Of a stretch of 42,284 nt of DNA, positions 36,972 through 41,838 are shown piece by piece. Origin of the DNA: Parcubacteria group bacterium RIFCSPLOWO2_01_FULL_48_18 (lineage in GTDB: Bacteria; Patescibacteriota; Minisyncoccia; UBA6257; WO2-01-48-18). The notes under the pieces are model-generated. The model was not told the DNA's origin. It did no database searches and saw nothing but the letters and a program-made list of their open reading frames with translations. Position numbers and translations under genes: made by a program. Each line of letters begins with the position of its first letter. Position 1 is the stretch's first letter. The stretch spans positions 1-42,284 of the forward strand of contig MHXH01000029.1 in the NCBI GenBank assembly GCA_001824435.1, given 5' to 3'.

Positions 36972-37748
36972 ATGATAACTATTTTAAGAAAAGTATTTAG
37001 CGATCTCGGCCTAAGCGATAAAGAGATCCAGGCAATGTTTGTTCTGCTACAAGAGGGAAGTCTTAGGGTTCCTGCGGTTGCGAAAAAAGCCCGCCTGAAC
37101 CGGACCACAACGTACGGTATTTTGAAGTCGCTCACGGAGCGGGGGCTTGTATCGTCCGCCGATCGCGGAGGGATTATCGAATATCAATCCATTCCGCCCA
37201 GCCACATCATTCCGTTCATTGAGCGCAAGCGGGACGAGCTGCAAGACCGAAAAGATGAAATTAAAGAAATATTGCCCGAACTAAAAAAAGTACGGGAAAA
37301 AAGAGATATTTTGCCGCGAATCAGATTTTTTGAAGGGATTGAGGGAATTAAACAGGCATACGAGGACACGTTAGAAAATAACAAAGAAAAAAAACTTCTT
37401 GATTTTACCGGAACCGATGCGATTTTTAAAAAAATGGACAAGGGATGGATTGAATATTATGTGAAAAAGCGGACTCGGCTTAGCATCAAATGTATTGCTA
37501 TTGCTCCTGATACGCAATGGTCGCGGGTTAGCCAAAAAAGGGACGGCGAACTGCTTCGCACCACAAAACTATTGCCCGAAAAATATACGTTCGACACCGA
37601 AATCGATATTTATGATAACAACGTAGGAATATTTTCGTTCTCCGAGGATCAGCCGATAGCTATCCTTATCGAAGATGAGAAAATCGCGCATACACTAAAA
37701 ACCCTATTTTATTATACTGAAAGTACTCTCGACCAAGATCAAGATTAA
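36972..37748 (+). CDS. TrmB-family transcriptional regulator
   Basis: A 258-aa protein. The N-terminal winged helix-turn-helix spans about residues 5-75: LGLSDKEIQAMFVLLQEGSL, VPAVAKKARLNRTTTYGILK and SLTERGLVSS are typical of TrmB. A coiled-coil helix follows (80-115, ERKRDELQDRKDEIKEILPE), then a phospholipase-D-like or sugar-sensing C-terminal region (RFFEGIEGIKQAYEDTL and on), without a clear ligand pocket. TrmB proteins repress or activate sugar or metabolic genes. It is transcribed divergently from the zinc-ribbon operon, whose promoter carries an operator-like palindrome, so it may control that operon and itself. AGAGGAA before the ATG is a fair ribosome binding site. Confidence 0.88.
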   Translation: MITILRKVFSDLGLSDKEIQAMFVLLQEGSLRVPAVAKKARLNRTTTYGILKSLTERGLVSSADRGGIIEYQSIPPSHIIPFIERKRDELQDRKDEIKEILPELKKVREKRDILPRIRFFEGIEGIKQAYEDTLENNKEKKLLDFTGTDAIFKKMDKGWIEYYVKKRTRLSIKCIAIAPDTQWSRVSQKRDGELLRTTKLLPEKYTFDTEIDIYDNNVGIFSFSEDQPIAILIEDEKIAHTLKTLFYYTESTLDQDQD

Positions 37749-39941: not shown

Positions 39942-41696
39942 TCAGGACACTTCTGTGTTGTAGCAATCTTCGCAAAGCAACTTCGGGTATTTTTCAACTT
40001 CTCTAGGGGACAAAAGCGTAGCTCCGCACTTTCCACAGCGCCGATCGTAGAATTTGAGGCGCACTGCATAAGGTTTCCGAAAACGGAAAATTCGTACAAT
40101 TGGATGTTCTCGCGGCAACGCAAGGCCATTCCTTCGGTAAAAATCCAACTCATAGGGCATGATTCGAAAATAGCGATTATTCGCAGTATCGTGCACTACC
40201 CTTGTGAGAATATCGTCGTCTACCGCGCGAATATCAAGCGGCAAATCATCTCCGTGAATGACGGCGGCTCCGTTGTCGGACGGCCGTTCTGCGGAATTTT
40301 TAACATCGCTCACGTCGTAACCAAACTTTACAGCGCGAGCATAGTCGTCGAAACCGGTGTAAGAAGTTGCAAACGATATTTTATATGGAATAGGCATGAG
40401 GGCCGGCGGAAAAAACTCTCCGTACTCACCGGTGGTTAACATCGATGTTTTAATATGATCAACAAGTTTCCAGTATTCTTCCTCCGTATACTGTCTATTC
40501 AGGATACAAAAAGATTTATTCTCAAGCCCGATACAGCCAAAGCAATAGCTGCAATTTCGGCATAAGTCGCAGTACTCGACCTCGCGACAGTTGTCGATTT
40601 GAGATGAAAGTTTTACGCCATAATTCCCGCTCGTACTGACAGTCATAAGTTCATAACAGAGTTCTCCTCCGCCACCGCCGACAATGTCGCAGGAGTCTCG
40701 GTAATCGGTGAGCCCCAAAGAGTAGTTCACCCCCACCGATTTCATTACATACAAGGAAAAGTAACAGTTTTTTGAATCCCGATTGTAATCTCCAAGGCAG
40801 TTGACGGTACGAATATTATTGTCAACTTTATAAAGTGCGCCTCGTTTGATTTTGGCGAACTCGGCAACATATTTTTGAACCTCGTTGTAATTCCCAAGAT
40901 ACACTCCCCGCATATGCTGCTCATATTCTTCTTTCGAAAGTTGTTTATTTCGAAAACAGTATTTCTTGTTCCTTAGATTTGTAGACATAAAACAGCGATC
41001 ACAGTTCCGACAATCGAAAAGGAACGCACTCTCAAGGCAATTCGAACACTCTTCACAGAAAAAGCAATGATATGAGTTTGTGATGTCGCGGCAACTGTAG
41101 CAGTTCGTTGAGTTCGTGAACGAGTTCCCGTCAACACAGTCCATGCTTCGATCGTGGCCATCAACATAGTACAAATTCTCCCCGCTCAGCGTGTTGAAAA
41201 CCAAATAGCAATTTTTGAGATTCGACGACGTGTTTGTATAATCACTTCCAATGTTCGTGGGGTATGTAATGAGGTTTGGCCGCGGAACTAATTTTTGAAG
41301 TTCGGAAAATTGGTTGAAAAAACCTTTACTTGCAATCCATTGATGCCCAAATGAGATCGGGTCCCACTTGTCAGAGCGCCACACCTGATGTTCGTAAATT
41401 TTGTACGGCGTCTCCGGAGGATAAGCGGCAATGATCGGCTTCTTGCTCCACGCAGACGTTATCCGAAATATGTTGTATGAGTTTTCGTAGGCCGATAAGC
41501 GTCGCCATCGCTCGTTCGGATGAAGCGTCGGCAAAGGAACCCCAATCCGTTTATAAAATGCGATATCTTCGGGCCGGATGTAAAATTTCTCGCCGGAGAA
41601 CCGGCATTCGCGCCACACTCCATCCTGCTTTTCGAGCCTGAGATTCGTGAAATACTGAGCAAGCGTCCTATTGAATTTTGGTGTTTCTTTTGCCAT
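39942..41696 (-). CDS. Cys-rich repeat protein with duplicated end modules, 584 aa
   Basis: I know of no functional description. Residues about 38-66 (KFYIRPEDIAFYKRIGVPLP then THPNERWRRL-like) recur at about 506-540 (RYFRIMPYELDFYRRNGLAL then PREHP), so the same module stands at both ends. Between them are two Cys-rich repeat blocks: 160-260, ending KKYCFRNKQLSKEEYEQ, and 300-412, ending KSFCILNRQYTEEEYWK. Each has many short N-C-Y/C-x2-C units, like the turns of a beta-solenoid that could bind several metals. A zinc ribbon closes the protein (Cys554, 557, 575, 578). The frame opens at an ATG at 41714, but GAAGGGC upstream of the ATG at 41696 fits a ribosome binding site. There is no signal peptide. 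Similar proteins are, to my memory, frequent in this phylum. Confidence 0.78.
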   Translation of the reverse strand: MAKETPKFNRTLAQYFTNLRLEKQDGVWRECRFSGEKFYIRPEDIAFYKRIGVPLPTLHPNERWRRLSAYENSYNIFRITSAWSKKPIIAAYPPETPYKIYEHQVWRSDKWDPISFGHQWIASKGFFNQFSELQKLVPRPNLITYPTNIGSDYTNTSSNLKNCYLVFNTLSGENLYYVDGHDRSMDCVDGNSFTNSTNCYSCRDITNSYHCFFCEECSNCLESAFLFDCRNCDRCFMSTNLRNKKYCFRNKQLSKEEYEQHMRGVYLGNYNEVQKYVAEFAKIKRGALYKVDNNIRTVNCLGDYNRDSKNCYFSLYVMKSVGVNYSLGLTDYRDSCDIVGGGGGELCYELMTVSTSGNYGVKLSSQIDNCREVEYCDLCRNCSYCFGCIGLENKSFCILNRQYTEEEYWKLVDHIKTSMLTTGEYGEFFPPALMPIPYKISFATSYTGFDDYARAVKFGYDVSDVKNSAERPSDNGAAVIHGDDLPLDIRAVDDDILTRVVHDTANNRYFRIMPYELDFYRRNGLALPREHPIVRIFRFRKPYAVRLKFYDRRCGKCGATLLSPREVEKYPKLLCEDCYNTEVS

Positions 41697-41838
41697 GCGT
41701 TCTTGCCCTTCCATTGTATAATCGTTCCGCCCTGAAGTAAATCCGCCAAGCGGGCAAAAATGGAGGTAGTGGGTTCGCGTAAGGGATACGATGACCCTAG
41801 TTTTAACTTCGGCTCCGAGGAAATCTCGGCTATTCTTA

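Follow-up and report, generated by a model that had tools for sequence, protein, structure and literature searches.

In Legionella, DotM, DotN, DotY and DotZ bind the VirD4 protein DotL at its long C-terminal tail (PMC12857230). A survey of Patescibacteria counted 5,713 VirD4 homologues in 2,918 genomes, 148 of them near virB4; most lie far from that gene, and exaptation was considered possible (PMC12102498). The passages of the survey drawn on here name no partner protein for these orphan T4CPs. Large Cys-rich extracellular proteins, averaging 1,655 aa and mostly equipped with signal peptides, have been reported from Peribacteria (PMC4736985).

The gene studied here lies in a window of 42,284 nucleotides (the whole stretch of DNA analysed). 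It belongs to a large family, hitherto undescribed, of coiled-repeat proteins with zinc modules found in ultra-small bacteria, and the new point is the link of this family to VirD4/HerA-type ATPases. No description of the solenoid family or of its ATPase link was recognised in searches of the open-licence literature. The linked ATPases share superfamily and phylum with the orphan T4CPs and are likewise mostly found without virB4 beside them (PMC12102498); we propose the solenoid family as a partner for particular subfamilies. The likeness to the Legionella DotL T4CC (PMC12857230) is that cytosolic-type partners are encoded with a VirD4-family ATPase having a conserved C-terminal tail. Unlike the T4CC subunits, the solenoid partner is multiplied into arrays, and in contrast to canonical VirD4/T4CP proteins most family-linked ATPases have no N-terminal membrane part within their own chain. 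For the solenoid family no match in sequence or fold to the DotL subunits was seen, and binding would here be a proposal by analogy; as regards DotM/DotN/IcmSW-type subunits, the window protein had no relative among PDB sequences, and the fold searches gave no significant match. With the Peribacteria proteins, as portrayed in the part of that report used here, the family shares the phylum, the Cys richness and the clustering of genes, but its members are about 580 aa long and without signal peptides, and identity was rejected: these are different proteins (PMC4736985). A hypervariable Gracilibacteria gene was also set aside, since the passage describing it presents a PTD-repeat protein, unrelated to the family (PMC6851277).

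Duplicated architecture and zinc sites

The features of the locus are collected in Table 1. The length of 590 aa is counted from the first ATG of the ORF. The end at 41696 given in an earlier, sequence-only reading corresponds to an in-frame ATG at residue 7, which is plausible as the start because relatives begin with MS-SKTPQF. The whole window protein matched no Pfam or NCBIfam family, a search of PDB sequences gave no relative and nothing convincing, and PHROGs gave one weak match (E = 0.0096). A known enzyme was thus found in none of Pfam, NCBIfam and the PDB sequences.

Table 1. Features of the two-block gene and a nearby TrmB-type gene, in window coordinates
Feature	Coordinates	Strand	Basis
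Two-block beta-solenoid protein gene with terminal zinc-type modules, 590 aa (584 aa if the start is 41696)	39942..41714	-	ORF and homologues
N-terminal module, residues 33-112, zf_Tbcl-like plus CxxC-type half	41379..41618	-	Profile matches of relatives, profile comparison
Block 1, residues 155-268, Cys-rich short-strand solenoid (predicted), ending in YCFRNKQLSKEEYEQH	40911..41252	-	Model and profile comparison
Block 2, residues 300-418, duplicated solenoid (predicted), ending in FCILNRQYTEEEYWKL	40461..40817	-	Model and profile comparison
C-terminal module, residues 505-590, homologous to the N-terminal module	39945..40202	-	Profile comparison
Zinc site C2 (C560, C563, C581, C584)	39963..40037	-	All four Cys in 269 of 276 sequences
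TrmB-type HTH regulator, third gene over, with TsaD-like and thioredoxin genes between	36972..37748	+	Profile match; locus comparison

Profile-profile comparison of 276 full-length relatives showed that both ends and core are duplicated. The N-terminal module (residues 30-145) aligned with the C-terminal module (487-590) with a probability of 99.7, E = 1e-26 and a score of 141, against a maximum of 16.6 among 20 column-shuffled controls. In this alignment FYKRIGVPLP (53-62) pairs with FYRRNGLALP (525-534), the recurrence from which a repeated terminal module had been proposed. Block 1 (146-290) and block 2 (291-446) aligned with a probability of 99.9, E = 3.5e-34 and a score of 194.8 (maximum 20.4 among 20 shuffled controls), and close with the motifs YCFRNKQLSKEEY and FCILNRQYTEEEY. 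No similarity between modules and blocks was seen in the three cross-pairs compared. The internal similarity claimed in the sequence-only reading, for the modules and for the two Cys-rich blocks, is therefore present.

Each protein end in the family contains two Cys quartets, and judging from the relatives the terminal modules are zinc modules of the zf_Tbcl/CxxC type. Counted at E ≤ 0.1, seven of 25 relatives matched zf_Tbcl (PF13451), nine zf_Tbcl_2 (PF23477) and six the CxxC-x17-CxxC model (TIGR04272). The window protein, with three of its quartets lost, matched none of the three at E ≤ 1; it is homologous over the module to members that do match. Proteins with these models carry the same kind of module, and in the solenoid family the module pair flanks a duplicated solenoid core. 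In the window copy, positions 37, 40, 65 and 68 (N1) hold C, S, H and E, positions 87, 90, 108 and 111 (N2) hold S, S, E and V, and positions 509, 512, 537 and 540 (C1) hold D, N, H and V. One site of four is kept, C2, a state common to 22 of the 276 sequences; its CxxC...CxxC is the terminal zinc ribbon already noticed in the sequence.

The family-wide pattern argues for real metal sites, since quartets are lost in an all-or-none fashion across the 276 sequences. N1 is intact in 246 and C1 in 154. At N2, four Cys were counted in 100 sequences, none or one in 174, two in 2 and three in none, whereas under independence about 164 of 276 would be expected to have two or three. The window copy belongs to a clade of eight (support 1.0) from differently named Patescibacteria and its own genome. 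N1, N2 and C1 are absent in all eight and C2 is intact in seven, the eighth (L058) having C2 beyond the end of its sequence. The window copy would thus represent a subtype that does without three structural zinc ions. The chain ends six residues past the last Cys in 259 of 270 sequences, the window protein included. Many relatives (L033 1711-3489, L048 6336-8114, L052 7881-9659 and others) carry an insertion, CQCAG...NG.Y.NT..H.HG..C, that splits the last zinc ribbon.

AlphaFold2 models were obtained for the window protein (pLDDT 88.7, pTM 0.90) and for a relative with more zinc sites (pLDDT 87.3, pTM 0.89). Both showed terminal modules of high confidence and a core that is a short-strand solenoid; the blocks are accordingly predicted to be beta-solenoids. 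Block 1 is the least certain part (pLDDT about 62-78), which makes the solenoid tentative there. Cys occurs at every third residue in the blocks; for block 1 the autocorrelation is 0.66 at lag 3 and reaches 0.65 at lag 12. Among relatives the block Cys positions are freely swapped for Ser, Val, Leu, Ile or Thr, a pattern that inward-facing solenoid positions, rather than metal ligands, would be expected to show. Because of this free replacement, and because the single-block relatives described below are Cys-poor, the core need not bind metal. The earlier proposal of a metal-rich solenoid hence divides: the solenoid stands as a prediction, and the metal-rich part is the terminal modules, not the solenoid. 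Foldseek gave no match at E ≤ 0.001 in PDB or viral libraries, and a VIA-align fold search gave nothing significant (best Z 4.6). The weak likeness found by both programs to left-handed beta-helix acyltransferases and gamma-carbonic anhydrases (LpxD, PglD) reflects a common repeat arrangement only, and right-handed beta-helix or pectate-lyase-like proteins gave neither a Pfam match nor a significant fold match for the window protein. The missing fold match is no evidence of a new fold. The median Cys content of the family is 6.2%. By hydropathy, nearly all of 276 ORFs lack a signal peptide or membrane span, the three with a hydrophobic N-terminus all being long ORFs with possibly wrong starts, and the family proteins are predicted to be cytosolic.

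Copy number, arrays and regulators

The source genome (1.21 Mb in 29 contigs, the window being contig C29) holds one fragment and eight full-length copies, of which four on C20 and two on C7 stand in tandem. Among 61 genomes sampled by kinship, the source genome included and the others all of the same order, the family was matched in six. Across the phylum its profile matched 55 of 379 genomes at 1e-10; in many of these the match covered no more than the C-terminal zinc module or a short segment. When named genomes were scanned for a pattern, at least 573 stretches encoding relatives were found, and the best 80 carry mainly Patescibacteria names, which agrees with the group-specific distribution first suspected. 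Two odd names, 'Burkholderiales' (L091, 0.7 Mb genome, 18 family matches) and 'Pseudomonadota' (L102, 4.5 Mb, 25 matches), likely stem from mislabelled records or mixed bins. As to an origin in viruses or plasmids, tblastn searches of phage and plasmid sequences gave no match, and a scan of viral contigs with the single window protein, reaching close relatives only, found none.

Within Patescibacteria the family is patchily distributed, and its genes are multicopy and frequently lined up in tandem. Family matches numbered 7 to 60 in each of eight chosen genomes of 0.7-4.5 Mb, and up to 11 family genes stand in about 22 kb at single loci (L107, L121). Over 137 adjacent family pairs the median gap is 13 bases and one third overlap. 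The nearest relative lies in another genome for 228 of 252 members and in the same genome for 24, so recent tandem duplication was rejected for most members; the members of the arrays, which are often operon-like, are, as their sequences indicate, anciently diverged paralogues. Array gene order was kept in 20 of 127 tests against 30.3 expected, which leaves a fixed multi-subunit complex with conserved gene order unsupported. In genome G548 (L080 1-14324 and L120) TGA is a sense codon, read as glycine; seven of its family ORFs stay open under code 25 alone, and each contains 6-13 in-frame TGA that fall mostly at Gly columns of relatives.

Most family flanks are unrelated housekeeping genes. The neighbours of the window gene are thioredoxin and tRNA-Glu genes and a gene that we take to encode a TsaD-like protein. 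Clustering of neighbours gave two recurrent kinds of gene, VirD4/HerA-type ATPases and TrmB regulators. TrmB genes occupy 17 of 46 divergent upstream opposite-strand flanks against 3 of 865 background positions (p = 4e-21). At other loci the divergent TrmB gene adjoins family genes, and only by that arrangement would the TrmB gene in the window be tied to the family gene. Small HTH regulators of 86-93 aa adjoin family genes at four loci (L037 11308-11589, L038 15105-15365 and two more), the L038 one being of ArsR/HTH_20 type.

ATPases beside the family and its single-block relative

Over 110 of 117 loci, with L133-L137 included although they were chosen through single- or two-block matches, ATPase-cluster genes were counted at 14 of 96 upstream and 18 of 101 downstream same-strand flanks (32 of 197 together), 0 of 86 opposite-strand flanks and 18 of 865 background positions. 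The enrichment over background (p = 4e-7 upstream, p = 1e-9 downstream) is inflated by relatedness, as the loci are not independent. The remaining 165 of 197 same-strand flanks have no ATPase gene, which counts against an ATPase partnership. On contig C7 of the source genome the order is family gene, family gene, ATPase gene; no ATPase gene adjoins the window copy, whose ATPase link is by family only.

ATPases at least 52% identical to an array-linked one were found in 11 of 192 phylum genomes, ten of them among the 11 with full-length family members (p = 8e-15, with a threshold picked after seeing the table and related genomes that are not independent). The exceptions are G190, which has the array-linked subfamily without the family, and the source genome, which has the family and an ATPase only 45% identical to the co-occurring subfamily. 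A P-[LIM]-[ILV] ending is shared by ten of the 11 array-linked-type ATPases and by none of 19 other ATPases examined. The same ending was seen in 15 of 22 family-adjacent ATPases of the first neighbour set; the other seven are of a longer type, six of them with a CxxC...CxxC pattern, which occurs in 9 of 49 ATPase-cluster ORFs. The L051 ATPase, a copy that is not family-adjacent, carries zf_Tbcl_2 (E = 6e-13), the module kind of the family itself. In the ATPases scanned, PF10412 and PF01935 matched above the curated cut-off and PF02534 matched in several. At a cut-off of 1.7 for 19-residue mean hydropathy, none of 28 family-adjacent Walker A ATPase ORFs showed a membrane segment; a hydrophobic stretch does occur inside one further linked ATPase. 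A separate TM subunit adjoins or lies near the ATPase at some loci (L055, L122), and the TM-bearing T4CP found in most genomes is of a different subfamily.

A single-block relative (A4; 230-240 aa) was found in 9 of 147 genomes of the class of genome G358, and one ATPase subfamily (E ≤ 1e-96; best other ATPase 1e-33) in exactly the same nine. In a widened search the block protein was found in 33 of 392 genomes; 30 loci were examined, with 5 further matches lacking a locus. The ATPase stands directly upstream of the block gene at 26 of the 30, with gaps of -26 to +18 bases. The other four comprise one fusion, one locus at a contig edge and two with the conserved ATPase tail directly upstream, of which one is at a contig start and one appears broken by an IS200-type element. 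In L184 (171-1498) the block gene is preceded by a remnant of the ATPase, and immediately upstream of that remnant stands an IS200-type transposase gene (PF01797), suggesting breakage by insertion.

The natural fusion joins a VirD4/HerA-type ATPase to a solenoid block in 629 aa (L157 1489-3378, minus strand; also L188) and is one case from one draft assembly. It lacks the ATPase tail motif and block residues 1-40, and these missing parts could be those that a non-covalent pair might need for docking. From gene context, the association of block with ATPase is well supported in the one class and moderately so for the two-block family.

Proposed role and alternatives

It is possible, if still short of probable, that the family's proteins work in the cytosol of Patescibacteria as auxiliaries, either adaptors or cargo receptors, of VirD4/HerA-type ATPases mostly not encoded beside a type IV secretion locus, the window gene being one member. 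This reading as auxiliary subunits, with arrays as a repertoire, draws on the analogy with the proteins described as binding a VirD4 C-terminal tail (PMC12857230). The solenoid block would dock on the ATPase, perhaps via its conserved free C-terminal tail, while the variable surface and the zinc modules would select what the motor handles. An array would then be a repertoire of alternative adaptors serving few motors, partly controlled by the divergent TrmB-type regulators. The substrate of the motor could be DNA or protein.

That one motor goes with many family proteins would suit cargo just as it suits adaptors, which counts against this reading. The two-block proteins might be fed by a VirD4-type motor into a secretion channel, the block serving as the signal for docking or export and the arrays supplying a range of proteins suited to different hosts. 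Arrays of diverged paralogues in scrambled order, the patchy distribution, the divergent regulators and the exactly conserved free C-terminus would all suit cargo. A block protein that is one-to-one with its ATPase in the G358 class, and once fused to it, would be odd for cargo, and the lack of an obvious membrane segment in the family-adjacent ATPases also counts against it; we consider this alternative unlikely.

Slightly less likely still, in our view, is that the ATPase is a HerA-like cytosolic DNA translocase acting in repair, segregation or anti-element defence, with the solenoid/zinc proteins as DNA- or RNA-binding partners and no secretion. The ATPases do match DUF87/HerA, FtsK and PADLOC mad8 and HerA models, and treble-clef modules often bind nucleic acid. 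Against it, the genes neighbouring the arrays include no recurrent nuclease or other defence gene, and PADLOC gave no match for the window protein and one weak match (E = 0.0015) for the single-block protein. The mad8/HerA matches of the ATPases were read as superfamily resemblance and not as defence identity. Ordinary structural or metal-buffering Cys-rich proteins, with ATPase and TrmB neighbours that do no more than flag regions prone to variation and expansion, would account for the high Cys content, the multicopy state of both gene kinds and the many housekeeping flanks, but are very unlikely given same-strand-only ATPase flanks, exact co-occurrence and fusion in another class, and zinc sites that are dispensable and lost as units, which disfavours storage.

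We infer an adaptor role rather than cargo or a DNA-binding partner. A broader proposal, rather unlikely as it stands, is a Patescibacteria translocation or DNA-handling machine unlike known T4SS, in which an anchorless VirD4/HerA-derived motor would work with swappable solenoid/zinc receptors, each selecting its own cargo; some of the phylum's orphan VirD4 homologues would be such motors. Patescibacteria genomes are tiny, yet some devote many genes to this family (60 matches in the 1.4-Mb genome G548). The multicopy arrays and the VirD4/HerA link, absent from the sequence-only reading, give what had been called an unknown role a testable context, and the role of the motors becomes testable as well, now that a partner family is defined, a two-gene operon is seen to be kept across one class and a fusion occurs naturally.
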